Shown: positions 2-51,270 of the stretch, piece by piece | Layout: each line of letters opens with the position of its first letter | Position numbering within the stretch: the stretch's first letter is position 1 | Source: Prostheceraeus crozeri | Lineage: Eukaryota; Platyhelminthes; Polycladida; Euryleptidae | Direction: 5' to 3' | NCBI GenBank assembly: GCA_907163375.1 | Contig: CAJQUW010003479.1 | Location: forward strand, 1 to 64,000 | DNA length: 64,000 bases | Notes under the pieces: model-generated | What the model was told of the DNA's origin: nothing | What the model saw: only the letters and a program-made list of their open reading frames with translations | Database searches by the model: none | Position numbers and translations under genes: made by a program

Positions 2-2885
2 CATAAACTTGTGATAGAATCCATGTTTCGCATATTGTGGAGGACTTTCATAAGTTGGCGAGAAAGTCAACATCTACTCAGCCTTGATAGATCAACAATC
101 ATGGATGAAGCTAGAAAATTTCATCTGGCATTTGAGAACGGAGAAGATCTCTAAAAGCCAATGAAATCATTTTGTGAAACGACTGAGGTACTTCCTGAAG
201 AACTCGAGACATTCAAGCGTTATGGACGGACAAAATCGAATCTGTTTGCTTATTGGAGTGATTATCTCGAAATGGTGCAATTACTTGTAGATTTTATCAA
301 AGCAGAGAGAACAGGAGATTGGCCTCTTCATTTGTCTTCAACTGCAGCCATGAAACCGCATTTCTTTTCCATGGATCGCCCTAATCACTCAAGATGGCTT
401 CCAGTTTACTTGTCAGATATGAATCAGCTAAGTATATCTCATCCTGACGTGCATGCTGAATTTATGAAGGGTGACCATGCCATCAATCGGTCGACTAAAC
501 TCTTTTCTAAGGTTTGGACGGACATGGCACTTGAACAATCAATCAACCGCGACAGTAAGACAATTGGAGGCATCGTAGGCATTAACCAGCGAACGGGAGC
601 ACAAGACCGACGGTTTCTTACTAATCATCATCGAGCTTTGAAAACGTCAAAATTGAAAGATATGTGTGATCTCCAAGACACAGGACGGATCTGATCTCAC
701 CGTGAAGGAGTTTCTAAAAGAGTAGAGAGAGACGAAGATGTACAGAAATCACTAACAGCCCTTGAATCTGAATTGATAACCAATCCATTTTCCTTAAATG
801 ACAACGAGGATAGCACTGAACCCCTTGTCAACATTTCTACGGGTGTCATGATGGACTCAGACTCTGTTGATGAGTTATTGAATTTGTACGATAATCGCAC
901 CATTGAAATGATGAATTTGGTTGAGCAGCGATTGAATACAAGTGAGGTATTCTTTTTAAATTCGATTCCGAAAAAAGGATCAAATTATTTGACTCAATGA
1001 CGATGAAAAAAATCATGAAGTCAGCAGACGAGAAAGAATTCGTAATTGGTGCATACAGGAATCTTTTTGGGCGCCTCATGGTTGCTGCTCGATCGAGAAA
1101 TTTAAATTTGAAGGATGTGCTCAGCTACGAACTTTCAGCGGTGTCAACATCCATCGCATATTCAGATGATAGCCCAAGGAAAACGAATAAAAGCGTACTT
1201 TTCGATGTGCTTGAAGATAAAATCACAAGTGAGCCTCGTCTACCGGAATCTAGTACGGGCAACAAAAGCACAGTCCACATCTATGATATGATGGCAATCA
1301 TACAAATGGCAAAGCAAAGTCATGTGGCTCTTCGACATTTGGGGAGCTAGCTTATTAATATTACAAACAAATCACAGGAGTATTATTCCGAAATGAATGC
1401 AGGCACCTTGATATTATCTGCGATCGGTATGACAAAATCTCAATCAAAAGTCAAGAAAGAAACACCTCGAAAAAATGCTCTGCACACAGTTATGGATGTG
1501 AACTGGTGTAAAGGATAGAGCTAGATACATGCCCATACATAGAGTTGTTGAAAATCGGGGAGCCGATTTATGTTCATTGTTGCCAGGTTTGCATGCATTG
1601 ACAGGTTACTACGATTACATACGATACCACCAGTGCATTTTCTGGTCTTGGAAAAAGGAAAGCTTTTAACATGATAGCAGACAATAGCGAACATCGGCGC
1701 TGTCTTATTCAAGTAGGACATGGGTTCCCAACCTGGGGAACGCGTACGCCTTGGGGGTACGCGAACAACTTTTGAGGGGTACGCATAATATGGGAGATTT
1801 ATTATAATTCATTTTTACTTTTGGGAATATTCCTTGGTTAGACATTTTATCTTTTAGAGATTGGAAATAAATTGGTAGAATTTATCTATAATTGCTAATT
1901 AGTGCAATATATTTCTGTTACTATCCGAAGCTATCATCAGGCAGTCTGTGAATGATTTACAGAATAAAATTTGAAATTCACATCAAGAGATATATAAAAA
2001 AAGATAAACAAAATATACAAAACTATGGCAAGAGAAGGAGCTATGCGGCTGGCATAGAAATTAATAATACTATAGAAAGTCCTAGAATGGAAATTGCATG
2101 AAAATTATGGCACACGCCGGGGGAACTTAGTTGGGGGCAAGAAGCAAATTTTGCTACGCCTACTTAAATTTTTGTGTTATTGAATTACGAATTTCGTATA
2201 TTTCTACACGTAATTCAATTTTAGTGTGATTGAATTCTTGATATTCTTTTAGGTGAGGGTATGCAGAATAATGAAAAATCCTATGATTTTCCATTTTGGG
2301 GTACGCAGCATGAAAAGGTTGGGAACCACTGAACTAGGAGATGAAATCAAGATTAATGAAGCCACAAAAGATGAGTGCATTTGTCATCATTTGCTCGTTT
2401 GTTTCAATCCTTCATTTGTTCGATATACTCGTAAGCTTCCGGCAATGACACATTCAAATATGTTGATCACCTTAGGTATTGGCTGTTTTGCCAGAACGGT
2501 CAAAGAAATTAAAATTTGCCACCGACTGCTAATTGCCTGTACCAACACCTTAAACGTGTAAATCATCAAACTCATGTGTGGAAATCAGCCATACAGGCTA
2601 TGCTTAACTTGCCATCACCGACCGAACATGGATGCATTATTACGGAGAGTAGTCTACAGCCATTATTAATGACAAATGAGCCATCTCCCAGGTCGGTCTT
2701 GCGTTGAATCGAACCGTGGTGTCACTGCAGCCAAAACGTGCATGTTCGTCAAATTGCCGCTCCTTGCCGAATGAGATCAAATTTTGTACTGCACTGAAGT
2801 GTGTTGATGTTTGCGTTTTTTCAGCTGAGGCCAAAATCAGCGGTCCGATTGATGAGTTTTTTGGAAGAAAATAGTAACTAAACAT
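2..2885 (+). pseudogene. Decayed gene of an unnamed invertebrate multicopy (TE-like) protein family
   Basis: One reading frame runs from position 2 with in-frame stops at 152-154 and 692-694. It shifts at the A6 run at 971-976 into the frame that is open from 997 to 1350, with further shifts near 1400 and 1600 and at about 2455. Recognisable blocks in order are: an N-terminal region (HKLVIESMFRILW), YELSAV followed by RKTNKS (about 1120-1190), DRYDKISIKSQER (about 1415), LPGLHALTG followed by a shifted CDTTSAFSGLGKRKAF (about 1580-1670), YQHLKRVNHQTHVWKSAI (about 2545), PSPTEHG (about 2610) and a Cys-rich tail ending near 2880. I recognise this block order from a family that is abundant in invertebrate genomes and annotated only as uncharacterised. 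The copy number suggests it travels with a transposon. The start lies outside the window. A hAT MITE interrupts it at 1719-2331. I infer a dead copy; the family's function is unknown to me. Confidence 0.7.
1719..2331. mobile_element. Non-autonomous hAT MITE inserted in the relic gene
   Basis: The 613-bp element starts catgggttcccaacctgggg and ends in aggttgggaaccactg, so its ends are inverted copies of the hAT-type terminus CAGTGGTTCCCAACC. It is flanked by 8-bp target duplications with one mismatch: aagtagga at 1711-1718 and aactagga at 2332-2339. The subterminal motif GGGGTACGC occurs near both ends. There is no open frame of note inside. Removing the element and one duplication joins the flanking coding sequence in frame, so it inserted while the host sequence still resembled a gene. 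Confidence 0.88.
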
Positions 2886-18448: not shown

Positions 18449-20812
18449 ATTTATTTATTTATTTATTTATTTATGTAAAGAATTTCACAAAAGTGTGGCG
18501 TTTTGTCCATGAAGGACTTCAAGGCCATATCACAAATAGAAAAATGTACAACAAAGATTCGTACACTAGTTGCCAAACAGCAGGTCAACAGATATTTATG
18601 TAGTACTAGTAGATTACAAACACATTCCAAAAAGATTACAAGTATTTATTTATGAGATGGGATTTAAGCATGCGTTTGAAGCAAGAAAAGGACATGGGGG
18701 AGGTTAGAGAAGTGGGAAGAGAGTTCCACACGCTTGGGGAGGTGGAGGAGAAAGAACGACCGCCTAGGGTCGGGTGTCGAGTAAATGGGGTAAGAAGTTT
18801 AGCAGTGCTTGAAGACCGAAGGCGCGAGCGACTTGGAAGAGAAGAAATATTGGTAAGTTTGGAAGAGAGGTATTCTGGGACGGAGAGGTTAAGACACTGA
18901 AAAGTAAGAACAGCAATTTTATATTCAATTCTGCCTTTGATGGGGAGCCATCGGAGTTGCGACAACAGGGGTGAAATAGGGTCATAGCGAGAGGACATAA
19001 AAATAATTCGAGCGGCAGCATGTATTACACGCTGAAGACGATGAAGAGAAGACGCAGGTAAGCTAGCGTGAATGGAAAGGCAATAGTCAAGCCGAGATAA
19101 CACTGACGAAGTGACAAGAACTTTGGTGAGCAAGGGGTTAATAGAGGAGCGGATACTGCGAATGAGACGAAGGGAGGAAAAGCAACACGACACTGTTCTC
19201 GAGATATTGGGTTTGAAAGTTAAGTGGCTGTCGAGTGTTATACCAAGGCACTGGAGCGTTGAGGTAGGCTTGATTTGAGCATCGCCAAGGAGGATGTGGT
19301 TAGTGGGAGGCAGGAGTCGACGCTTTGAAGAACACCACATAGCAGTCGTTTTTGCAGGATTTAGCAGGAGATGGTTTGTCTTCAACCATGTGGATAAGGC
19401 ATTTATACATGCTGAGAGTCTGGCACTGAGCAGTTGAGATTGAGAAGGGTTAGAACGGCCATACAGTAAAATATCGTCAGCAAACACATGAATAAATAGG
19501 TCATGCGTTTCAGCGATTTGGATAATGTCAGAAGAGTACAGTATGAATAGAAGTGGGCCCAGGACTGAGCCCTGGGGCACGCCACAATCGACAGGGACAC
19601 ACGAGGAGGATGACTTGCGCAGGAAGACTGAAAGTTTTCGCTGACGGATGAAAGAGTCGAACCACTTCAAAGCTGTGCCTGAGAGCCCGAAGGACAGTTG
19701 AAGGCGTCGAATAAAGATTGAGTGATCAATGCTATCAAATGCAGCGGTTAGGTCGAGGAAGATAGTAATACAATATTACCATTGTCCATGGAGTTGAGAC
19801 AGTCAGATGTTATGTTAAGCATGGCGGACTCGGTTGAGTGATGATGGCGGTATGCTGACTGAAAGCGTGGAAGAAGATTAAAGTGATTGAGATGTTCGCG
19901 AAGTTGGGACGCAACAATTCTCTCCAGGAGTTTTGAAAGGACTGGCAGGTTGGAAATTGGTCGATAAGATGAGGTGTCATTGGGGTCATTGCAGGATTTC
20001 TTGGGTACAGGAGTAATTCGAACATTTCTTCCAACATTCCGGGAAACAACCAGTCGAGATGCTACGATTGAAGAGCTCGACAAGAAAAGGAATGAAAGTG
20101 TCTGCACATTTTTTCAACACAGGACGTCGGTATAGGATCAAGGGAAGAGGATTTGTCCGGCAGTTTCGAAATGGCAGTCGTGACAGTCTCGACCGTGATT
20201 GTTTGAAGTAGTGGAAAGTCACAGTTGTCTGGTGCTGAGGAGAAGACGGGTTGATCAGCGTTGGCTGTAGCAAGTTTAACAGAAGCTGCTTTCTGTAGAA
20301 ACGATAGTTGTAAGTCTTCTGCGGTAAGTGAGGGTGGAAGAGGGCGTTTACCACGACCAAGTAGAGAATCGAAAGTTCGCCAAAGCTCACGAGGATTATT
20401 ACTGGTATTGTCGACTTTCAACTGCCAGAAGGCTGAGCGCTTTGACTTGAGCAACGCGCGGTACTCATGGAGATGTGACCTCCACTCCGAGAAAGCCAAA
20501 TCCGATGAAGGTGAATTGAAAGATAAAAGACGACGAAAGCGGCGTTCTTCTTTCCTCACACGGCGTTTGAGGATGCGATAATGCTCATCGAACCATGGAT
20601 CCGATGGCCTGCAAGGACGTCTTATTGTTTTCAAGGGTATAAGACGATCAAGAGCTGACGTGATAGTAGAGTTATATTCTTCGGCTAACTGATTAGTATC
20701 AAGAGTAGACAACAGTTCGGGACTACACAATACAGAATCTCGGAGAGACGAACGCAGTTGTGAAATATCAAGTCGGTTCCAGGGTCTGTAAGAGGTAGTT
20801 TTTTAGGTGGAT
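18449..20812 (-). mobile_element. 5'-truncated CR1/L2-type LINE
   Basis: On the minus strand, coding sequence for reverse transcriptase runs from about 20805 to a stop at 18636-18638. A 3' UTR of about 160 bp follows, ending in a (TAAA)n-type microsatellite tail, seen on the plus strand as (TTTA)n at 18450-18475. The 5' end breaks off near 20812 inside the protein, before any endonuclease domain, as is usual for 5'-truncated LINE copies. Coding sequence here is clearly GC-richer than its surroundings. Short tandem tails without long poly-A are typical of CR1/L2 elements; the clade call rests on that and on the RT C-terminus. Confidence 0.92.
18636..20805 (-). pseudogene. LINE reverse transcriptase, frameshifted
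   Basis: Blocks in order: a pre-RT linker (PWFDEHYRILKRRVRKEERR), YRPISNLPVLSKLLERI (RT motif 1 region, about 19950), TIFLDLTAAFDSIDHS (motif A, about 19730), GVPQGSVLGPLLF (about 19570), FADDILLYG (catalytic FADD, about 19480), then SVLSRLDYCLS, LHRLQRVIHAAARI, LRWLPIKGRIEYKI and a Ser-rich end LINKYL. Three shifts break it: one at the A6 run near 20110, one near 20030 and one near 19765. The 345-codon 3' part (18636-19670) is still open. The C-terminal RLDYC...LP...RLQ...AAR...LHWLP pattern is that of CR1/L2-group RTs. The copy cannot make an intact protein. Confidence 0.92.
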
Positions 20813-24098: not shown

Positions 24099-24484
24099 GA
24101 ATAATCTTTATTTTATCAATGCGAATTTATCATGAATGTTCAACCGGGATTTATGCATGAATCATCAATGCAAGTTTTTAAGATATTATAATTGCGTATT
24201 TTTGGTTCAATAATGATAATCGATGTATTTTGACAATGCATATAAGCTTTCCAATCATTAAACATGCTTACCAACAATGATTTTCAATTTTGAATAATCT
24301 TTATTTTATCAATGCGAATTTATCATCAATGTTCAACCGAGGTTTATGCATGAATCATCAATGCAAGTTTTTAAGATATTGTAATTGCGTATTTTTGGTT
24401 CAATAATGATAATCGATGTATTTTGACAATGCATATAAGCTTTCCAATCATTAAACATGCTTAACAACAATGATTTTCAATTTT
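24099..24484. repeat. Two tandem copies of a 193-bp unit
   Basis: The unit starting GAATAATCTTTATTTTATC at 24099 repeats at 24292. The copies differ at only about five positions. The unit contains TTTATGCATGAATCATCAAT, a variant of the CATGCATG word seen at 12.3 kb. Downstream, 24485-24555 carries CCATGGATT/CATGGATTC words and ends TCCATGGCTGGGCTACTAGG. Confidence 0.9.
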
Positions 24485-24560
24485 GAATTTTCCATGGATT
24501 TATTGGAATCATCGATCATGGATTCTGTGTCCATGGCTGGGCTACTAGGGATCATTCATC

Positions 24561-33529: not shown

Positions 33530-34102
33530 AGAAAGTAAAAACACTTTATCGCAAGCGCTTTCGACCGACGCCGCCAGTCATTATCAAGCGACTGTTCGTT
33601 TATTGTTGGATCAATCAGACATAAACAGTTATCACAGGGAAGTTTCTAGACCAAATTCATTTACATTAAACACATTACAAAAATCCTAAATTAACCTCAA
33701 AAATACGTCAATGAGCATGTTACTCTTAAAATTTTGCAAGTAATGCACATCAAAGTAAAAACAAAGATAAGAAAGAAGACGCTAGCTAAAGAACAGAGTC
33801 ATAAAAAGACCCAAGATCTATCGACAAGAGAAAATCCGAACACGTACGGATGATACGTGAGCTTGACGTCGACCGATCCGAGCTAGCAAAGCATGTGATA
33901 GACAGTGGTCATAGGATCGACATTGATTCCATGACTGTGGTGGACAGGGAACGCTCCTGGAAGAGGAGAATAGTGAAGGAATCTCTTTGGACTAAACATT
34001 TCCGTTCCAACAACCGAACCAAGATAGATCTTGGGTCTTTTTATGACTCTGTTCTTTAGCTAGCGTCTTCTTTCTTATCTTTGTTTTTACTTTGATGTGC
34101 AT
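33530..34102 (+). mobile_element. Penelope-like element fragment with inverted ends
   Basis: Arm 33743-33822 and arm 34023-34102 are an 80-bp perfect inverted repeat, from ATGCACATCAAAG to CAAGATCTATC on the left. Between and into the right arm runs the 3' end of a PLE open frame, whose stop lies inside the right arm. Further left, on the minus strand at about 33530-33600, sits a hairpin GACTGGC-GGC-GTCGGTC followed by GAAAGCG, of the type found at PLE ends. I infer a 5'-truncated insertion that carries an inverted copy of its own 3' end. Confidence 0.75.
33823..34059 (+). pseudogene. C-terminal fragment of a PLE GIY-YIG endonuclease
   Basis: The frame is open from the arm junction at 33822: IDKRKSEHVRMIREL, SELAKHVIDSGHRIDIDSMT, VVDRERSWKRRIVKESLW and the end GSFYDSVL at 34059. 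The pattern S-LAEH-(x)-TGH-ID-(x)-VLD-E-(x)-R-R-KES is the latter half of the GIY-YIG domain of Penelope-like retroelements. The GIY-YIG motif itself, the RT and the 5' part are missing. The fragment has no internal stops, which suggests a young insertion. Confidence 0.72.
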
Positions 34103-34105
34103 TTG

Positions 34106-37011: not shown

Positions 37012-37330
37012 TCACTCCTCGTTTAGCGTCCTTGAGTTCCCTGACGGAGTTGGACGGTTGATGGCTCGTCTCCAGCTGTTTCGGTCCAAGACAAGATCTT
37101 CATTGATTTCGAGCTTCTTGACATCTCCTTTGATGCAGCTCCTCCATGACTTCTTCTTTCTTCCTGCTGGTCGGCGACCGCCTTCTTCATCTCTCTCTTC
37201 AACTTCTTTCACGATATTGTCCTTTCTCCTCACATGTCCAAACCAGTGGAGTCTACACAGATCGTCACCTCTAACCCCTCGAGCAAAATGATGTCCATAC
37301 GCTAACCGTTTTTTAACCGTGAATAAACGG
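37012..37330 (-). pseudogene. LINE RT C-terminal relic
   Basis: The minus frame reads LHWFGHVRRKDNIVKEVEE, RRPAGRKKKSWRSCIKGDVK and DRNSWRRAINRPTPSG. This is the same LINE tail pattern (L-WFGHV ... GR-KK-W-D-IK-D ... DR-WR) as at 6.8 kb, but from a different copy. No other RT part is recognisable. Confidence 0.75.
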
Positions 37331-37374
37331 AGAAGGATAAAGCGACGGAATGAACGGAACAAGTGGGTACGAGA

Positions 37375-37625
37375 ATTTTTATCCGCCTGATGATATCACT
37401 TAGGTATCCCCAAGTTATCCGCGTTCATCGTTTCAGCATCTCCTGGATAACCGTGCATATCCTTCCATGTACAAGGATATCCCCACAAAATCCTTGATTT
37501 CCCTAAAAGCTATCCGCGTTTTACGGATGGTTATCCTCCATCGGAGCTCAGCTTACGACGGGTAACCATAGGTTATCGGTTATAGCTTATCAAGGATATC
37601 CAACGGTGCATCTACAGATATCATA
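37375..37625. repeat. Degenerate GGATATCC/TTATCCGCG word repeat
   Basis: Diverged copies of TTATCCGC, GGATAACCGTG, AAGGATATCCCC, CTATCCGCG, GGTTATCC and AAGGATATCC over 250 bp, in both orientations. A second locus of the same type lies at 62.3-62.5 kb. Confidence 0.6.
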
Positions 37626-38256
37626 GAAACCCATACTGTTTTGTAGTCCTCCACTGAGCTGTCCTCAATAATCGTCAACATGTGCATTAAGCCCATGATG
37701 ACCAAATTTGAAATTGACAAAAATTAGTATCATTATTAAAAGTAGTATTTTATTACAAAAGGAGTGCTATTGAAATGGTTTGATATAAAAAACAAACAAG
37801 TCAAATACATTTATGACTCATGTAGAACACTAATTTCAAAACAATTTTAAACTTCAACCATACTATAGAAACGTTTGAGATTTCGTACACCACAATTACA
37901 AATCGGAAATATTGCTTTTCAGCGATAAGAGAAAATATATAGAAATACAATTAAAACAATCTTATGTGTCACAATTACAAAATCAAAGTAAAAATTGAGA
38001 GCGATTTGGAAAGGGGAATGAGTCGAATTTCAGTCTGCACTTCATACTTGAAGGATATTGCTACATCCACGATAATATTATAAATTGCATAAACATTTTG
38101 GCTTGAACAAGAATTGTCGTCTGCACAAATTACAATTGCAAGGGTTGCTTTCAATATCACTTCGCATTAGATAGCAAAATACTTGTAGCAAAACATCAAT
38201 CGACTTCGTAAGTGTTTCATCAAAAGATCACGATGCAAGTAAATGTAATAAGCGCT

Positions 38257-41200
38257 TTACACATCCCTAGTTTCGCTATCACTATTCTCACTACTGACCG
38301 AAACAGTGTCCTGAGAGTCATTGAGTGGACTACTCATCCGACACTGCGATTCCATTTGAAGACGGTGTTCCTTGCTTTTACGTCGGTCACTACAGCGGGC
38401 TAGATGGGCACTGATACCCGTCAAAGCTTGGTCCACTCCAACTGCTGCAGATTTCATTACTACGGAAGTGATGGCTTGCTGTATTCGTGGATAAGTTGAT
38501 GATAATGGTTTCTTCTTTGACTTTGAAGACGGTTCGCGAGTAAAATACTGGAATATTTCATCTGGTGCTATGAGGCGGCATACAACACGCGCTACATAGC
38601 CTGCATCAGCCCTTCCTTTACCAATCCCTTTATCTTTTGGGGCCATTAGGAACAGCGACTTCCGTAAATCAGATCGGAGAATCGAGGATCCCGAAAGTCG
38701 GAGCTCGAGCTCGTCCAACTGAAATGAAAATAAAACAACTAAGACATCTAACATTCTAGTTGATAGGAGGCATGATATATTAAATTCAATACTCATACTG
38801 CAGCGTAACTTTTACAGACTAGTTTTACAAGGATTTTTCACAGCCAAAGTAATCTTAAACGAGTAATCGACGTAGTCATCAATCACCCATTTACTTTTAA
38901 GCACTGAGCATTCAATACTCTTGTACATGTAGAGAGATGTTTGAATTAAAATCTAAGACTTAACTGGTAAATATGTGTAAATACATGAACTATAATAGAA
39001 GTTATACTCATGGTACAAAATTGATTCGAATAGGAGAAGAGGGGTAATATATGAATATAAGATTTATACTTCGTAATTTAAGCAAATCAACGCATTCCGT
39101 TGACCAACGGTCGGAATGATCAGAAAAATCAGACTTATGATTACATCAAATATGGATGGTATGAGCCATCCAATCATGGACTGGCAACCATGCATTGTAA
39201 AGTTCGAGCTCGCTTAATGTCCGCGCGTACTTTTCGGCCGTGGAGAACAGAAGTGTTTACCTGTCTATTACTTGAAGTCTAATATAATCTATGGGTGAAA
39301 GTAACTAAGAATTCAAATATATCCAAGCACTACTCAAGGAAAAATCGACTTTATTCACACTATTATGGTGCTTTGTCCATATTGCCTCTTTCCCCAATAT
39401 GTTTTTCTTTTTCGTCTCACGTTCTGTTACTGTTGCATTCTAATAGTTAACAACGGCATATAAACAACCTGCTTGGTTCTTCTGCAGTTCCCCCACATTT
39501 TCCTATCTTATTCTGTATTGCGTCCTACACTTATCCTCTATCTCATAAAGGACTACAAAATTTGATGACCATTTGGACATTGCCTCGGTCATATTCCTGT
39601 GAAAACCGAGCTTCAACAGAGAGACGAATGAACTGATGAACATTGTCAATGAGCATGTACGAAATGTCGAACTTGGGAGTGTTGTGATATGAAGATTGCT
39701 AAGATACGAGGTGCCGGTGATGTCATTCATAGGAGTATGATGCGTAACAAGGGTCAGATACGTAGTCTATGATAACTTCTTTTGTGCTGTCCATTCATTC
39801 CTACCATAGATAGCCACATACTTCTTGTTCCTCCCTCTAACTTTGTACTTTGATTTCTACTTAGCAAGGAACGTTGGAATGCTACGTTGGAGAATCTGGC
39901 AGGACTGCTGAAAAAAGAACAAATGAACAAAAAAAGAGCTGTAAGAAAGAGACACAAACTCAGAAATAAGCAACCACTCAAACGAAACATCAAATTTAGT
40001 GGAATGCAACAATAGAACGTGAGACGAAACAGAAAAACAGATGGGGAGAAAGAGGCAATATGGATAAAGCACCATAATAGTGGGAATAAAGCCAAATTTT
40101 TTTAGAGGAGTGCTTGGAATAATCTCATCTGATTTCTTGGTTACTTTCATCTGTCTTCACTACATCCGAAGTTATCTTGTTTATTCAGCATGACCATTAT
40201 TGACACACGCTTGTTCTTGGGCATCAATTTGGTAAAACTTAGATGAAAATTTCATCAAATTCTTACAGAAATGATGAAAATATTCTTGCAAAAATATAAG
40301 AAGTAAAAGGTAAATTTCATCTGTATTTGCTGCATTTAAAGCACAAGAAAATGTAAATCAAACAGTGAGGTTAATGACTTAAGAAAGAACTAATCAAGCA
40401 TTAGGCATCCACGCTATGAGCGAAATAAATTTTGTAACAGTAGTAATTAAAGCATGCAGAATGAGATGAAAAGTCACCAAGCTGAGTTTAAAACAAGCTG
40501 ACAGGTCGAATAAAATGTTCATAGAAAATTAAAAAGATGCGTTTTTTTAAATGGATTAAATATGGGTATCAAATATAAATGGATTTTCATATAAAAGGTT
40601 ATGAAATAGCAAATAACAGGGCATCAATAACCTAATAATCTTACAGGTAATATCATCAAGAATAGAAAAGTCTTCGAACTACCGAGGTCAATTTTTAGCA
40701 TAAATAAAACAAGAAAAATAAAGATAAATTTCTCACATCATGAAAATCTTACTTCTAATCGATAATCATCGATAACTTTGACTTTTTCGAAGTACAAAGT
40801 ATATACATGCTTAGTTCAGATATATGCCTACTTATACTGTTTTTTTCTTTATCACTTTACTCCCATTTATTCCCCGGGAGTGATTATCGGTTGGGAAGTG
40901 CCACTTTAGTGGACTTTCGACCGGTGCGTTTGTGCATTTTTTGCCCAGATGCCCTTCCTGTCGACTACCGATGATCCTTTTGATCGGCCTCGAACCTGTG
41001 ACCTCAGGACCCATAGGCAGGCACTTAGATCACAGCTGAATGATCCTGAAAAGCTTATCAAAAACCAACAATCCACCGCACTCATATAAAGAGGAAGTAA
41101 TTAAAATTAAACTTACCGATGATTCATTTGTCACTGGAACCTTGAATTTTTCCAGGGCATCTTCAGCAACTCCCGAGAACTTGGAACCACACCCCAATGA

Positions 41201-44200
41201 GTCCATACCTTGCTCTAGTAACCGATCCAGTTTGGTATTCGCTTCATTCAATGATGGCTTCAACTCCTTCCCGATGTATTCCTGCAACACCCAAATTTAA
41301 GATACAGCATCACGACTTACCAGAACCGATTTAGGTTGTAATTTTGCGGTAAGCATTATGACCCAAAAGGAGAAAGATGCCACTGTATAGCAGAAGAAAC
41401 ATATGCAATTCATGCTCCGCAACGTTTTTTCACCGTCACACAGCGAAAAGTCGAACTAGTTGAAGATCGAAGAGCAAATCAATTTCTTGAAATCAATGAG
41501 ATTTTCATCATTTTTCTTTTGATTCTGACCGATGTGAAGACGATTTGTTCGTATCATAAACAGTTCCCATATTTACACACAAGGCCAAATATATAATTAT
41601 TTTGATATGTCATGCGCTTGACCAATGGCTCTTCCTATTAATTACGAATTAAATTTTAACTTAAGTTTGAGAATTTGAACTTTCACCTTCCATGTAACTG
41701 GATTTAATAAAATTTACATAAATGAATAAGAATTATCAGTTAATGTTTCAGATCAGCTAAAATTTCAGATTCGCAGCTATTGCTAGACCAACGACGATTA
41801 AGTTCTTCACCACTGAGAATGTCACTACAAGCGCGTCACGGACTATTAAAGAAATGAAATGACGGTACTTACCAATGCGAAATCAAGTTTTTCAATAAGC
41901 GATCTTTCTGCTGATGAATGGGGTTCAACCTGTATTTCATGTGAGGCTGCAAAATAAAGCATCATCAGAGTCACATCATTTTAAGTAGGACTACAGCTTG
42001 ATGGATATCAGAATTAAACAATATATTGAAGTTATATTACATTATACATGCACACATGTCGAAATTTTTAAAAACTGAAGATGTCTACAAATTTACATGT
42101 AGATAATGCTAACTTGTAAGATCTTCGATTCATATCGGAACACGATTGATGATACAAGGTGGATGGTTGTTCGTCAGATTTCGATGACATAAACGTGCTA
42201 TTATCTTGCACTTGCAAGTGCTTGTCATTCGTTCTCATCGAAAGCCATGACACTTACCTTGCAATACCCGAGTGTCATTGAAGCTGCGGTTCACAGGCGA
42301 AGGACTTCGATTCGAGCTATCTTGTAATAACTGAGTGTCAGTGGAGCTGCGGTTCACACGCGAAGGACTTCGATTCGAGCTATCTTGTAATAACTGAGTG
42401 TCAGTGGAGCTGCGGTTCACACGCGAAGGACTTCGATTCGAGCTATCTTGTAATGACTGAGTGTCAGTGGAGCTGCGGTTCACACGCGAAGGACTTCGAT
42501 AGGAATTATCTTGTAATAGCTGAGTGTCAGTGGAGCTGCGGTTGATACTTAAAAGACTCCGATCCGGGTTCTTTCGTGATTGCAAAAAATTAATTATTCC
42601 GGATGATATCGTTTTCGCACGTTCACTTTCAGAGTCGCTATGTTGAGTTCCAATCAATGAATCGAGGAATTTTTCTGCTTCTTCTAGTGAATCGAAATAT
42701 CTTTTGGTTTTCCCAGGCAGGGCGATCCAGGCGGACTTGTTGGGAGGGGTACATTCCGAAATCAGGGTCGACAAGTTTCTACAAAAGTAATACTAATTTG
42801 GTTGGAGTATCAATGGACAATGAATACATTATATGCATAATTAAGTTACTGAATCCGAATATTCATCACCATTACTGAGGTAAGACAATTTTACTTCTTA
42901 TTTAACATTTTCTATTATTGACATAGCTACGGGAAAAATCGTCATTTTACCAAGTATCTCCCTACACTCATTTCCATATAGCCTATTTCCGTGAAGGTTT
43001 GTGAACGAATACGCTAATTTCGATTTTCGTTTCAAAACCTAGGTTATTTTACGATTTTGTTAATACTCGAATGTCGATGGAGTGCCATCACATCAATGCG
43101 CAAAGCGTAGATAAGGTATGATTGACGCCCAAGATGCGCGAACGTAAACAATAAATTCCCAGCTACCTGTTACCACGTAGACTATTTCGGACAGACTGTC
43201 GGTTGCTATTGTTAACAATATAATAGAATTTTTCCTCTAGATAACAGAAGAGCGCACTTCTTTCTTCAGATTTCAACTGCTGGACATTTCCCCCTTAACC
43301 GACTTTTAATCAGTGATACAAAAGCTTGTCAAGAAATAGTCGACAACATCTTGAAATCATATTTCTCCGCCGATTTTATTAAAATAAAAATTTAAAATGA
43401 AAGCAAATTTGAAAACCCATGTGATGGTGATGCTTATTTATTACTTAGAAACAGTAAATGTTTTGATGAAATAGAAAATCCGCGTTAAAATCGCTTTGGA
43501 AAGGGAATTTCTACGCGATAATTTCCGACGCCCGTCCTCCACGTGATCTACTTCGCTGGCTGTGTACTGAATTTAAGGCTTAATTTTAACCTATAACAAA
43601 TAGCAGACGCAATGGCCTATAGCATAGACTCGAATGCGAGATTCCGAATTAAGTAGCAGTATGATCACAATCCATTGTGCTAAAAACATCTCAAAAATAT
43701 TAAGTTATTAAGGTACTTTGAAGATGTGGCAACGTTTGTTTCTTCCATTGTATTATCAATGTCTCCTGTCCGTCATCAACTAAGTGAAAATCATTTAATT
43801 TATGAAACAGGAATTATAAATACCAATGTAGGTAAATTTTTTGAAAGCTAGCAACTTGAAAAAGATGATTATTGACTTCGAATTTAGTTTTGATTGGTAT
43901 GTATCGCGAAAACGTTTTTATATTCCACCACAATACTCCCCTCCCCCACTCAATAACCTATATGAGTCAGAAATAAATCAACACAACTTTTCTCAATTTA
44001 AGCAGATAAACTGCTTGTGACTGCTACAAACAAATTTTGCAGCAGTTTGGTCTGTATGAAGTTGCAACGAATCACATGATTTTTATGTCTCATGCAACTG
44101 GTCCGTCTGATGCATCAAGACGGTTTATTATGGCATGAATCTTTCTTGTTCATTTACATTATGATGTATGTAAAATTATCGTGAATAAAACTTCCACTGA

Positions 44201-45361
44201 AAATAACATTTACCTCTCGTCTTTAGATCCAGGAGATGGCCAGAAACAGCATGTGAATGTTCCATCTATCTCTGGTGTGGTCGATATCCAAGATGAGGGA
44301 ACTGTGAAAAGTGATTTAGGTCGCTCCCGATAAAAGTCAAATACAGCATAAGACTGGAAAAGAAAAAATGATACTAAAATGAACCCTTACGACCAATGTC
44401 TGTACACTGTGTTAAACATTTAATATTAAAGAAAATTAAATTTATGATGTTCAAATGATAAAAAATCACATGACTTTATAGTCTGGGGTTACGATTAATA
44501 TTTGTAATAATATTGCTTGTATATTCCGACTAGTGCTTTCATTTCATAACAGTTCCAGTTTTTCCAATCTCAAGTTAAATTTTCCTATCATCAGGTATAT
44601 TGAAAAAAATGCGGAAAAAGCGGGGGATATGTTGTCTCCTTGAAGTCATGATAGTTTACAACCCAGTCGTCTCGCTAAATCATTGTATGTATGCCAACAA
44701 GCGGAAACAACAGCATAGCAGAAACTAAAACCTGCATACACTTTCCTTTGTAGGAAAGTCCACCGTTGTTTATATCACGTGAGGATATGAAATGTAACAC
44801 CAGCATCTGCCTAATTAAGACCATTGTAGTCAGCTACTTAACCCCAAAGGCATGAAATAATATGTTATAATCGTCGTTTAAGCAGGCATCATTTAAGGTA
44901 AGCTTTTTTTATTATTCGGCATACCCTTCAAATTTCAAATGATCACATGGAATGTGAGCCATCATCCGTTCGACTCACTGTAGCTTGATAAAAGAATAAC
45001 ACTGATATTTTTAAAAAACACTGATCATTTGATATTCTATTTGAGTATGGAATGATCAAAACTTTTACTTCACAACACAGTTGGTAAACTTCAGACCACA
45101 AGATCTTGTAACCATTATCGATTAATTACATTTCAGTTATACATGCACACGCACAGTATGATACGTCACAAATTCATACACATTTTATGTACCGCATAAC
45201 GTATAGTGTGTAAACACGAACTGAGAAAAGAACAAAGATTATATGAATGTATAGAAACTTACACTCTCCTTCTTAGCTCCACGAGGTCGTTTCGATGGCG
45301 GCTCCGTCACATCCCAATACGGCTTCACTGGAACTTTTTCTCGCTTCCCGGAGTTTTCCAT
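38257..45361 (-). CDS. Six-exon gene with a DUF4806-like C-terminal domain
   Basis: Exons on the minus strand: 45361-45263 (ATG, 33 codons), 44353-44214, 42778-42258, 41946-41873, 41281-41117 and 38718-38257 (stop). Every junction is GT-AG (donors GTAAGT or GTAAAT; acceptors TTTCCAG, TTTTGTAG, TTTTGCAG, GTTGCAG, CATTTCAG) and all phases join, giving 1461 nt (486 aa). Domains: a basic N-terminus (KPYWDVTEPPSKRPRGAKK); YAVFDFYRE ... VPSSWIS ... CCFWP; KSAWIALPGKTKRYFDSLEE; a Ser/Asn repeat from a 63-bp minisatellite (about residues 150-245); a short coiled coil (LNEANTKLDRLLEQG); and a final domain (LRKSLFLMAP ... VVCRLIAPDEIFQYFT ... IQQAITSVVMKSA) like DUF4806. AATAAA lies at 37753-37748. DUF4806 proteins are of unknown function and often TE-associated. 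It starts about 180 bp after the transposase stop on the same strand. Confidence 0.82.
39845..40010 (+). pseudogene. Possible PLE GIY-YIG fragment in an intron
   Basis: In one frame the segment reads TLECYVGESGRTAEKRTNEQ, then KKSCKKETQTQK and a stop. The YVGESGRT-(x)-KR-(x)-E pattern is the first half of a GIY-YIG domain as in Penelope-like elements. The match is short and the following frames are broken. It lies in the intron between the fifth and sixth exons of the minus-strand DUF4806-like gene. Confidence 0.45.
40838..41039 (-). mobile_element. tRNA-derived SINE with an RTE-like 3' part
   Basis: Read from 41039 on the minus strand: CAGCTGTGATCTAAGTGCC (box A region), then GAGGTCACAGGTTCGAGGCC (box B GGTTCGAGGC), then GGAAGGGCATCTGGGCAAAA. 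The last motif is common at the 3' ends of RTE/BovB-type LINEs and of SINEs mobilised by them. The SINE sits in the intron between the fifth and sixth exons of the DUF4806-like gene, close to the exon-5 donor. Confidence 0.7.
42271..42543 (-). repeat. Coding minisatellite, 63-bp unit x 4.3
   Basis: Units start at 42271, 42334, 42397 and 42460, with a partial unit at 42523. They are in frame in exon 3 of the DUF4806-like gene and encode a 21-residue repeat around NRSSTDTQLLQDSSNRSPSR. The middle copies are nearly identical and the outer ones more diverged, as expected from unequal crossing-over. The array is Ser/Asn-rich and probably disordered. Confidence 0.95.
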
Positions 45362-46707
45362 CAGTCTATGGATTGAAGATTGGACTGAGAAATGTATGTG
45401 CACGTGATCATACATAAATCCACTAAAACTTTTCCTCCGATGAATCATGCAACATTGCCATAAATACAGCACATCTGACTTCATGATATCCATACAATTC
45501 ATTAAGATCGATTCGCATCCCCCTTCTAAGCTGCAAAATTCTGCCTAGGGTGAGAGTTCATCATTTGCGTACTTAAATGCATTGACTTTGTAACATCCGA
45601 CAATCTTGGAATTCACTGGTTTGGTAAAAAATGGAGTTGTATTTACGTATCTCCGTACTGACACAGAGTTACCAGTCACGCTATAGACTTCGTAACATTT
45701 GTGATGCGATAGATCAATATATATGTTGTTAGGAAATGAGGTCAAAACTGCAGACCTTGATTGCTGAAGCACTTTGTCTTTGTTTATTTCTTGTTCCATT
45801 AAAGTCTTCTTTATCATAGAGACTAATGGGTTCAAAGGTGACTTGATCGACTTCTTTATTTGCCCCAATTTACTTTCAAAGGAATATGCGGAAACTGAAT
45901 CTAAACTGCCATGTACCTTAGCAGTCTCCGATAAATGAAGAAGGGAATGGACGTTTATACACTAAAAATGATTCACCATAAAGAGATGAGGCTTGCTGTA
46001 CGTATGCTCTTAGCAACTTATTAGCGAGTTCATTTTCTTTTGTAGCGTGATTTTGATCCACTAATAATGAACAGCCAACACTAAGATTACATAAGTGCTC
46101 GTAATGAGCCTCTGTTGCTAATATACCTTTGAAAATCACCTTGGCAGTATAAAGAAGCATTTGGCGGAACTCCGTAGCTTTGAAGCGCTGAAGATCTCGT
46201 AAGGTTCGCGGACGTCTAGCAAAGCAGTTAGGCACGCTAACTCTAAGGGCATTCAACCGATTATTCAATAATTTCAAGTTCGAAGATGAAATTCGGCAAG
46301 GCACATGATTTTCCCCGACCGTCTTTGGGCCGGTGGTAATCCATGTCAGAAATCGTAACATTAAACCACTCCCTAGATGCATTAGATCATATGGGAATGT
46401 GTGAATCATATCACAGTCTGTAAGCTCATAAGGGGAATCAGTTGCTTTGTGATGCCGTGTTTGGCGCCTTTCTCGAAAACTTTTATCTGTTCGCATTTGA
46501 AAATCTACCTCCGGCCATATCAATCGTTTACCATCATGAGCTCCTTTTGATTCACAATAATCACACCCAAAAAAACCATTGAATGAGATTATACTTTTGA
46601 CCATGTGACGGGCAGGGGTATCGCATATGTGAGCAGCGAATTTGACATCGTAATGTCTGTTTTGAAACCAAATGCCCTTTTCCGAAAGTACATTTATTTC
46701 TAATATA

Positions 46708-49700
46708 CCGTAGAACGGGGTGAATTGGGACAGCGGGGTGAAATGGGACTAATTTGAATTTTGAGACAATTTACCTGTCTATCATCAAAACTAATTTATC
46801 AAATTCCTCTTAGCTACACTTTTTAGAAACTATCTGAAATTAACTTTATCTTTCGGATTTTTTATAAATCTATTTATGCTTACGTATATATTTGTTTAAG
46901 TGGTACTTTAATTCAAATTAATCATATGATTTTAAGTTGCCATCTTAATTCACCTGAACTGGTTAGATAGAAGCAGCCACATTCAAAGTGTAAGTATCTA
47001 CAACGAGGACATATGTCCATACTTATAACGTGTATTGATAAATAAATGTAAGTTGATGTATTGAGGCGATATACAAAATTAATTATATTTTGTAATTTTT
47101 CATTGTCCCAATTCACCCCTCACTTTATATCAGCCTTATATTTAGGTTCCCTGTCCGTCATCAAACGTATTGTTTGGTATAACAAATCAGCTTTATTTGA
47201 TAATATAGATACTACACTTCATGAACAAAATAACATATCAAACACAAGACAAATTATCAACAAAAATATTCATATACGAGTATTCTATTCGTCAAGTAAA
47301 TTATTTTCTATCTGAGTTAGTTACTGATTATAAACTGTAAAACTAAAAATGTAGCATACCCGAACTTATCATCACTCTATTTTAGTAAATGCTTCTATCT
47401 AATAACATTTCAACATAATTGTTGTATACATCGATTTTATTGACTATAATATTTCGTTATATTTCAGGTGTCCCAAGTCACCCCACCAGTTTTGCGAGAC
47501 GATGCCGCGAAAATATAAGAAGAAAACTGACACAAGAGCATACAAGGCCCACGATCATGAAGTAATTGAGAATGCCGTGAAAGAAATTAATGATGGTATA
47601 AGCATACGGAATGCTGCCCAGAAGTATGGTGTTTCCAAAAGTGTCCTGGGGCGCCGGATTAAACATCAACAGACATTGAAACCAGGTGGACAATCAGCTC
47701 TTAAAGATGAGTTTGAAAGAGAATTAATCCAGAAAATTCTTATTTGTGCTGAATGGGGTTATCCCATGGATTTGTTTGAAGTACGACTGTTTGTGAAGTC
47801 CTATCTAGATTCAAAAGATATCCACATCAAGAAATTTCGAAGGAATCTCCCGGGGAAAGATTTGGCCATGAGTTTTTTATCAAGACATAAAGACGTTACG
47901 ATTCGAATGACTCCTAACATCAAAGGGGGAAGAGCTGAGGTTAGAAGAGGTGTGATAAATGAGCATTTTGATAACTTGAGCAAGACTTTGGAGGGAGTGC
48001 CTCCACACAATATACTAAATTACGACGAAACACGCTTTGTGGATAATCCTGGCACGAGGAAATGTCTTGTTCGAAGAGGTTGCAAGCATCCGGAACGTGT
48101 AGTCAATAGTACGAAATCTTCTATTTCAGTTATGTTTTGTGCTGCTGCGGATGGAAGTATTCTTCCTGTTTACACTGTCTACAAAGCCACTGGGATGTGG
48201 TACACTTGGATGTTGAATGGGCCGTCAATGCCAGATATAACAGATCATCCAGTGGATGGTTTGATTCATTTACATTTACCGATTGGTTTTTTAAAGTAGC
48301 CTTGCGTTACCTCAGACGATTACCAGGTAGAAAAGTATTGATAGGTGATGATCTTGCCAGTCATTTAACAAAGGATGTAATTGAAGCGTGTGAAAGAAAC
48401 AACATTGCCTTTGTATTTCTTCCCAGAAATTCAACACATCTAACACAACCCTTAGATGTTTCATACTTCGGTCCTTTAAAGCGTACATGGAGAAATGTCC
48501 TTGACGAATGGAAGCGAAGTCTTGGAAAAAATCAGTCTTCTTTGCCTAAGGATCAGTTTCCCGCATAACTAAAGAAAACATTGGAGCAACTTGAGTTTGA
48601 TGGGAGAGGAAACAAAAACGTAGTAGCAGGGTTAAAACTGGTATTGTACCTCTGAATCGAGAGAAAGTGATATGCCAAATTCCTACTCATGAAACTCAAT
48701 GATGATTCTACTCATGATGAGAACAGTGAAGAAAGTAACCTCTCAGATGAAAATCTCTCCGATAGTTTAGCTTCCTTTTTGAGAGAAATGAGATATCGTC
48801 CGGATAAACGAATTGTTACTACTCGTCTCAAGATCAACATCGCAGCTGGAAAAAGTGTATCATTGATAGATATAAGTAATCCCACACAAGATTCGAGTGA
48901 GGATACCGATACAGGTTCCGCTACTGATACTGAATCAGAGATGGCTCAGAGACAATACATCAGTCGAATGATTTTGACAATGACATCGAAATGTCTGGAG
49001 ATCGTAACGAATGTTTATCAGACCACGTAGAAAATTGCAGTTTGGTCCCGCAACTAGGATCTATAAGCGAAGGTGCTCGGATCGCCGTCAGCCTTTCAAC
49101 AACACGGAATGCTCAGAATACTTATATCGGTCAAGTTCAAAATGTATACGGAAATTATGAATTTGAAGTGAAATTTGTCCTACAGTATCGTAATGAGCCG
49201 CAACAGTTTGTTTGGCCTTCTATAGACGATGTCAGCGATATTGAATTCCCGGAAATAAAACGTGTTTTGAATGAACCTACGCTACTCCGACGAGGTGTGA
49301 TGCTCTTCACCGAGGTGTGAGACATGCGCACGATTCTATAGATTTTTTTAGAAAAACATTTGTGGTAACTGTTTATGGCTAATAGAATAAAGATTTTAGA
49401 TAAAATTACTTGTGCTTTGGTTTTTGTAACAGAAAAGAACAAAATATGAAAACGATTTGTAATTAAAGAAAACATTGCTTGGGTTACTTATAGTTTTTAT
49501 GTGGCATGTCCCAATTCACCCTCAAGAGGGGTGAGTCGGGACACTTTTTGATGGCATATTTGAGATAGTTATCATGCATTAATTTATGCAAATTGTACGT
49601 CAATCCTTAGATGAAACTCTGAAATACATATAAGTACTATATAATGGACGAAATTAAATTGTTTAACATATGAAAAAGTAAAATAATTGAAAAATCCGTC

Positions 49701-49721
49701 CCAATTCACCCCATTTTACGG
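46708..49721 (+). mobile_element. Pogo-type DNA transposon, 3014 bp
   Basis: The ends are 24-bp inverted repeats with two mismatches, both containing GGGGTGAATTGGGAC, flanked by TA at 46706-46707 and 49722-49723. Copies of the GTCCCAATTCACCCC core recur inside near both ends (about 46730-46750, 47104-47120, 47467-47482, 49506-49543), probably subterminal binding sites. It encodes a frameshifted DDE transposase. It sits inside the transposase gene of another element, with the host frame preserved on both sides. Confidence 0.95.
47502..49320 (+). pseudogene. Pogo-family transposase, frameshifted
   Basis: From ATG 47502: a pipsqueak-type helix-turn-helix (residues about 20-60; IRNAAQKYGVSKSVLGRRIK), a CENP-B-like second HTH (LIQKILICAEWGYPMDLFEV), and the DDE domain. 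First Asp: ILNYDETRFVDNPG. Second: VLIGDDLASHL. Third: THLTQPLDVSYFGPLKRTW. The frame shifts near 48220 (NGPS to ARYNRSSSGWFDS). An in-frame TAA lies at 48566-48568 and further shifts near 48640 and 49000. After it come an acidic Ser/Asp/Glu stretch (48689-48960) and a C-terminal block YIGQVQNVYGNYEFEVKF ... QFVWPSIDDVSDIEF ... RRGVMLF ending at 49320, a tail I know from invertebrate pogo/Tigger proteins. All three catalytic Asp codons remain, but no single intact ORF exists. Confidence 0.93.
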
Positions 49722-51020
49722 TAGTTTCATGCAGAAATTCAAGATTTTCCGGTTTTGAAGGACCGATAGTGAAAACTACAGGGAAAACAACCGTGGGCAA
49801 CAAATTGTCAATTTTAGCTAAAAGGAGCCACGCAGATTTACCAGAACTTTTGTAAAGTGGTAAGCCATCAATATTGTCTTTGATGATTAAACAATTTATG
49901 TTGCTCAACGCATCCTGTGAATACCTACTTAAAGCATATTGTATTTGCCTCTCGTAACCAAAGTAGTAATAACTCATGCCAGATTTACTAACAATTTCTG
50001 CCCGAGGTATATGTAGTTCTCTTCTTAATGTTCGAGAATCTAAAGGCAGCGAACTAACACAATGTTTCCGAAGAGCACTCAATACTCTATTTGTCTGTAG
50101 GTCAGTCATGTCCGTCTCAATAACAGCTCTCCTTAAATCATCCCAAAGAGTGTTGGCATTCAATCTGCTCATATCATCATCAGTAGAGCTAAAATCGATC
50201 TTCTCATCGCTTTCAGGCCTATCCTCATCCTCATTACTCGAAAAAACTGCGTCAGAATCGGTCTTTGACTTTGATTCAACATGATCACCGCTTGAGTCAG
50301 CTTCTTTGTAAACTGATGCCTGGCTGTCATTATCAATCGAATCTACTTCATGTGTGCCTTTCCATGTACGAAAACCAATTATTGCATCTCCCCTTTCAGC
50401 CCCGTCAACCTGTTCTGATCTCGTTATATCCGATTCAATATCTGATCCTCCACAACTATTTTCAAACAAGAAATCCACGTCACTATCATTTAAACACTTG
50501 TAATTGATTTTAGATATTCTTCGCGTTTTACGTTTCCTTTCGTACTTTCCATCACTTATTTTTCTCTTTCCGAAATTGCACTTTCGGTCACCAATATTTG
50601 AAATATCGCTTGAAGACATCAAATTCTCTGCATTTGCAACAACCCTGAAATTGAACGTATATGTATACAAAAATCTTGTTAGTAGCTGTCGCCCATAGTC
50701 AGGTCAAGGTTGAACTATCGAACTTGGGTTGAAACATGGGCATTGGTTTGATTGGGTAGGGGTACCGAAGGTTCCCAAATAATAATCGTCAAAAATAGAT
50801 CGACGATTTAATAAAATGAAGAGCACAGCTGTAAGTGTACCATGTGTCACTATTTCTTCTGAGTAGGTCTACATGCACTGTATTTTATTCCAATTATGAT
50901 TAATTAGGTCGAGCCCTGGACCCGACCCATGTAAGTCAGTAATTTCACGAGGAATAATTTGTACTGAAATCGGTTCATTCTGATTGGCCTTTTCTTTATT
51001 TCCCAAAATTGTCTTTTGAA

Positions 51021-51152
51021 TATGTTGAGTTGGGAAGAACCAAGTTTTGTTCGATATTCAAAATATAAAATGTGAAATATACTGATCGAAATATATTGCA
51101 CATTTTATATTTTGAATATCAAACAAAACTTGGTTCTTCCCAACTTAACATA
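51021..51152. repeat. Near-perfect fold-back, about 60-bp arms
   Basis: TATGTTGAGTTGGGAAGAAC at 51021 runs to AATATAAAATGTGAAATATA. It is mirrored from 51084 to about 51152 with three or four mismatches and a very short loop (TGATCGA). It lies upstream of the minus-strand transposase. As a transcript it would form one long stem. Confidence 0.9.
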
Positions 51153-51270
51153 ATCATGTCAAACCAAGGCATTTTCACAACATGTATTTTGAATATCTCA
51201 ATGATTCCACTAGTGCTCATTACCTGTGAATTGAGTTCACCGACATCGAACAGGAGAATGGGATGAATGT

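Follow-up and report, generated by a model that had tools for sequence, protein, structure and literature searches.

A CACTA/TRC-type transposase gene beside a spliced DUF4806-like gene in the flatworm Prostheceraeus crozeri: a probable old, inactivated two-gene transposon

Among the CACTA/TRC elements of animals, SmTRC1 offers the closest described arrangement: according to PMC1636069 it gives rise to spliced messages, and clone B4 carries a partial transposase open reading frame (ORF) followed in tandem by a second ORF. The second protein lacked detectable relatives among the other TRC elements and was suggested by its authors to bind DNA; maize TnpD is a further precedent for a transposase and a second ORF in tandem (PMC1636069). 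Element sizes given in the same source range over 4.5 kb (SmTRC1), 5.2 kb (Tribolium), 8.3 kb (Spm), 9.2 kb (Aedes) and 14.1 kb (Rim). Here we describe a locus on the minus strand of a 64,000-nt stretch of DNA from Prostheceraeus crozeri (contig CAJQUW010003479.1, positions 1 to 64,000; hereafter the window), in which a broken transposase gene is closely followed by a spliced gene that we label DUF4806-like. Our preferred reading, to which we give a probability of about 0.6, is that the locus is an old, inactivated two-gene element of the animal TRC/CACTA type, with the DUF4806-like protein as its accessory protein; we infer that the two genes once formed one mobile unit.

The transposase gene was assembled from three minus-strand ORF pieces (50703–49663, 46748–45918 and 45961–45545), with an ATG at 50619 and a stop codon at 45547–45545, and it is interrupted by a second element:

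45545..50619, minus strand: broken transposase gene of putative CACTA/TRC type (ORF pieces, joined empty site, DUF4218 match, motifs)
46706..49723, plus strand: pogo/Tigger-like element nested in the transposase gene (26-nt terminal inverted repeats (TIRs), 92%; TA at both ends; HTH_psq; DDE_1)

There are two lesions, the insertion of the 3.0-kb pogo-like element between ORF pieces one and two and one frame change in the overlap of the last two pieces (45918–45961). When the flanks of the insertion are joined at one TA the transposase frame is uninterrupted, so the insertion is clean. The damage is what the original prediction had described, one frame shift and one insertion, the former borne out by the ORF overlap and the latter by the in-frame empty site. 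The nested element is pogo/Tigger-like: it shares with pogo/Tigger elements an HTH_psq (E = 1.2e-6) and a DDE_1 domain (E = 3e-16), found in two plus-strand ORFs, together with the TIRs and the TA duplicated at both ends. The transposase that it encodes has decayed and is, by eye, broken across several frames. It is an insertion in the transposase gene only and lies outside the proposed two-gene unit.

In Pfam the P. crozeri transposase matches DUF4218 alone, a family common in CACTA transposases (E = 0.0015, 18.8 bits, below the cut-off of 27). The protein was further checked for the motifs that PMC1636069 sets out for animal and fungal relatives of CACTA. The loose form of box I (D-G-x3-Y-x7-W) is present at residue 251, the box III CXXC at residue 343 (G-F-F-G-C-D-Y-C-E-S-K-G) and the D-L-M-H of box A at residue 406; 77 residues separate the first aspartate from the aspartate of D-T-P-A-R (both aspartates chosen by hand), and about 80 residues lie between the two in animal TRC transposases (PMC1636069). 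Because several of these motifs are present we call the transposase CACTA/TRC-type. The motifs are partly those of the family: the strict Transposase_21 box I (hydrophobic-x-hydrophobic-x-hydrophobic-x2-D-G-x3-[FY]-x7-9-W-P-[ILV]) and the strict box A ([LVI]-D-x-[LM]-H-x3-L-G) are absent by the motif check. No PDB sequence matches the transposase, NCBIfam gave no match for either of the two sequences searched, and one transposase piece folded at a predicted local distance difference test score (pLDDT) of 36.

The second gene follows on the same strand in six exons, whose borders were picked by eye. In the evidence listed with each exon, the automatic chain is an exon-chain search described below:

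45263..45361, minus strand: DUF4806-like gene, exon 1 with the ATG (GT-AG, frame score; recovered by the automatic chain)
44214..44353, minus strand: DUF4806-like gene, exon 2 (GT-AG, frame score; absent from the automatic chain)
42258..42778, minus strand: DUF4806-like gene, exon 3, holding a tandem repeat of 63-nt units (frame score; donor end shared with the automatic chain)
41873..41946, minus strand: DUF4806-like gene, exon 4 (GT-AG, frame score; recovered by the automatic chain)
41117..41281, minus strand: DUF4806-like gene, exon 5, in which the DUF4806 match begins (frame score; absent from the automatic chain)
38257..38718, minus strand: DUF4806-like gene, exon 6 with the stop codon and the rest of the DUF4806-like region (stop shared with the automatic chain)
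39296..40149: 854-nt element inside intron 5 (~145-nt TIRs, 83%, 39296–39440 against 40149–40002)

With GT donors and AG acceptors the six exons join in phase to a coding sequence of 1461 nt including the stop codon (486 amino acids). Scored with a codon table derived solely from the transposase, the claimed frame is the highest in all six exons, narrowly so in exon 1 (7.9 versus 5.9), and the joined coding sequence reaches 56.5 bits against −11.8 and 1.2 in the other frames. Run the other way, the test gives weaker evidence: with a table derived from the second gene all three transposase pieces score negative in every frame, the true frame being the least negative each time. An automatic exon-chain search of 38100–45544 returns five exons (41.3 bits) and does not reproduce the six picked by hand; two are identical, two have one end in common, one is new, and exons 2 and 5 are missed. 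When 16 tile/strand pieces over 1–59560 are searched in this way, the minus-strand tile 37226–44670, with exon 1 outside it, comes third with 34.3, after the transposase tile, whose 102.0 is inflated because the codon table was trained on it, and the pogo tile (41.5); no remaining tile scores above 21.6. By codon and splice evidence the second gene is well supported as real, and the prediction of an open, spliced gene of six exons agrees with the phased GT-AG borders and the frame scores; the exact exon borders are provisional. Within the window the second protein matches nothing but itself.

The tandem repeat of exon 3 (42258–42543) has a 63-nt unit of 21 codons, present in 4.5 copies at 94% identity, and by eye the copies differ mostly at amino-acid-changing sites. 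This bears on domestication, in which the host would have kept the DUF4806-like gene of a former two-gene element while the transposase decayed. An open six-exon gene adjoining a transposase that a pogo-like element, by now decayed too, has disrupted is what such a history would leave behind; the repeat copies, with their differences mainly amino-acid-changing (by eye), show no purifying selection, and we consider domestication quite improbable.

Intron 5 holds further repeats. The 854-nt element begins TGAAAGTAAC and has no obvious target duplication; it is taken as a later insertion and no part of the proposed unit. A stretch at 40880–41030 looks by eye like a short interspersed nuclear element (SINE) derived from a tRNA, with a box-B-like GGTTCGAGGCC; neither ARAGORN nor Rfam (gathering threshold) gave a match anywhere in the window, this stretch included.

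The spacing of the two genes is as tight as originally described. The ATG of the second gene at 45361 lies 183 nt past the transposase stop at 45545, on the same strand and in the same reading frame:

45362..45544, minus strand: linker from the transposase stop to the second-gene ATG (183 nt, 61 codons open in the shared frame, not coding-like)

The first in-frame ATG after the transposase stop comes 42 nt on, as counted from the translation. When one frame is fixed, 61 of 3000 first-order Markov stretches stay open over 61 codons, as do 766 of 18,234 stretches of the window, before a further one-in-three factor for the frame match. For its shared open frame, a fused protein was considered, in which the transposase and the DUF4806-like region would ancestrally have been one frame, now split by a single nonsense codon. 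Codon use lowered this candidate. In its true frame the linker scores −8.6 bits with the transposase-trained table, much as stop-free intron stretches do (mean −10.6, sd 6.4; 37% of 509 score as high), and with either codon table both other frames outscore the true one. Since the linker does not look coding, a fused protein is unlikely; of all the explanations weighed here we hold ancestral fusion to be by far the least credible.

The linker also holds an acceptor-like TTTCTCAG, and acceptor-like sequences stand just before each ATG (CTACTAAC...TTTCAG before 50619 and ACATTTCTCAG before 45361). Because the linker is only 183 nt long and these sites precede both start codons, a shared leader or promoter is possible.

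The second protein was named as DUF4806-like before any search was run, and it is mainly for this reason that the Pfam result carries weight. DUF4806 (PF16064) is the best full-length match (residues 322–361, E = 0.098, 13.4 bits) and spans exons 5 and 6; with the C-terminal 173 residues alone it is the sole Pfam match (E = 0.038 over 24,736 models, 14.8 bits). Taken as one family named beforehand, a match of this quality has by arithmetic a chance of about 1.5e-6. The N-terminal part of the protein is also reminiscent of other DUF4806 proteins. In PMC11075544, which cites Pan et al. 2023, DUF4806 is called a subtype of the BEN domain.

A number of results weigh against a two-gene element with a DUF4806-like accessory protein, and they fall on the family of each protein and on the ends of the element. 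The DUF4806 scores of 13.4–14.8 bits are below the gathering cut-off of 25 bits, and the match, which lies in the C-terminal third of the protein, covers profile positions 3–44 of 90 at most, under half of the profile. Matches of similar strength that appear chance-like are found to DUF4699 in the exon-3 ORF (E = 0.025, 14.3 bits) and to DUF1582 in the N-terminal part (E = 0.092, 13.0 bits), and the exon-6 ORF alone matches no Pfam family at E 0.1. Because of the sub-cut-off score and these matches to other families we use the label 'DUF4806-like'; the likeness is weaker than the original prediction implied. Against PDB sequences the second protein gives two chance-level rows (best E = 0.41). 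A single-sequence fold of exon 6 alone is helical and poor (pLDDT 57), and the 12 PDB matches of the model at E up to 10 include none at 0.001 or better, so that the BEN-likeness of the second protein is unconfirmed. The second protein therefore differs from DUF4806 proteins (PF16064) in its sub-cut-off score, the small part of the profile matched and its unconfirmed fold. On the transposase side, Transposase_21 is unmatched in the Pfam search at E up to 1, which together with the missing strict boxes qualifies the earlier CACTA-like label.

No TIRs with a target duplication stood out around both genes, as had been predicted. When 4-kb flanks were searched for ends of any starting sequence, with a target duplication of 2 or 3 nt, the best pair failed in all eight settings to outscore every one of 12 control region pairs; the nearest pair (51727/37981; 20 of 27 positions, TT) exceeds 11 of the 12 controls. 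Among CACT-type ends (26 x 30 sites) and CCC-type ends (46 x 42 sites), both inspected by eye without controls, there is no convincing pair. Among the 25 inverted repeats listed, of 245 in all, the clear ones (I1 and I3, I2, I6) belong to nested elements. In a copy this old the ends may have been lost. The span of 12.4 kb shrinks to about 8.5 kb once the pogo element and the 854-nt insert are taken out, within the size range of CACTA/TRC elements. A 140-nt palindrome at 51017–51156, upstream of the transposase start, has arms 90–94% alike and resembles a hairpin-type miniature inverted-repeat transposable element (MITE).

The collections searched, viral, prokaryotic and plasmid, are not intended for animal genomes, and they yielded no relative. 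Viral contigs were queried with a transposase piece, a C-terminal transposase piece, the second protein and a motif pattern; prokaryotic genome contigs with the motif pattern and exon 6; and plasmids by tblastn with one transposase piece. None of the stretches matching a short pattern (14 and 4 in viral contigs, 152 in genome contigs) encoded a relative, and the motif pattern matches the window itself once. Given the nature of these collections, the absence of relatives from them says little.

That no TIRs with a target duplication stand out around both genes also fits chance neighbours, a dead CACTA/TRC transposase lying beside an independent DUF4806-like host gene or a separate repeat family. 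In line with such a history the transposase is broken and the second gene open, the linker lacks coding character, and DUF4806 genes of other animals are reported with no transposon link: the DUF4806 passages of three other papers do not mention one, which likewise counts against the preferred reading. The unequal damage is weak evidence, since one frame change per ~2 kb predicts by arithmetic that a 1.46-kb gene is undamaged about half the time, and chance would have to account for a spacing of 183 nt on the same strand and in the same frame where the window has hardly any long ORFs besides. We judge chance neighbours unlikely, although a more serious contender than domestication. A two-gene transposon, ranking ahead of both, is our best reading; the original proposal is partly supported: it gains from the TRC motifs, the reality of the second gene, the DUF4806 match named in advance and the SmTRC1 B4 precedent (PMC1636069), and loses from the lack of TIRs with a target duplication above controls.

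Judged by its content (a spliced gene, a LINE and transposases of pogo and CACTA type) the window is eukaryotic. Elsewhere it contains the following, all apart from the locus discussed here:

18639..20802, minus strand: remains of a long interspersed nuclear element (LINE), with RVT_1 (E = 3.5e-23) in 18639–19775
24099..24488: tandem duplication of 193 bp, 97% identical
33742..34103: two 81-nt arms, perfectly inverted and 200 nt apart, possibly a young hairpin element
155..1347, plus strand: two long ORFs with no Pfam match that read like one broken repeat-borne protein

If the locus is an inactivated two-gene element, a working copy can be pictured from the analogy with maize Spm. The DDE transposase would cut and join the ends of the element. 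The DUF4806-like protein would attach to the DNA of the element itself by way of a BEN-like region, and this binding could aid synapsis, control the element's promoter, or both, as TNPA does beside TNPD in Spm. A single upstream promoter might, again as in Spm, have served both messages through alternative splicing.

More broadly, DUF4806/BEN-like proteins might be the accessory proteins, equivalent to TNPA, that have long been missing for animal CACTA/TRC transposons, a generalization that we offer tentatively and hold to be doubtful. Were it true, the many DUF4806 genes of some invertebrate and fish genomes would largely be transposon cargo or its domesticated descendants, and mobile DNA would be the origin of one class of DNA-binding domains in chromatin. 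An accessory protein of DUF4806/BEN-like type would give animal CACTA elements a DNA-binding partner that can be assayed. It would also explain a pattern in Hydra that itself speaks for the two-gene reading: in PMC7642931, a table of expanded domains gives DUF4806 counts of 69 and 54 in two Hydra species and of 6, 0, 1, 0 and 0 in five other cnidarians, and the same table is rich in transposase domains, with other domains too.

A link of DUF4806 or BEN with CACTA/EnSpm was not found in the literature, a search that had most subscription journals and Repbase outside its scope. TNPA is not known to be related to DUF4806. The comparison with maize En/Spm (TNPD and TNPA; PMC1636069) is by analogy only: there, each element has two proteins, the second of them DNA-binding, and both arise by alternative splicing of one unit, an arrangement that the P. 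crozeri locus may have shared. The animal TRC elements in PMC1636069 have TIRs beginning CCC and a 2-bp target site duplication, which were not found at this locus. With SmTRC1 and other animal TRC elements the locus shares several transposase motifs and a size of several kilobases (PMC1636069). As in SmTRC1, the second ORF stands in tandem after the transposase ORF, in SmTRC1 on one spliced transcript (B4). The second protein here would be set apart from that of SmTRC1 by its putative DUF4806-like character. The two-protein animal CACTA element is therefore already known as a kind; a DUF4806-like second gene within one would be new.
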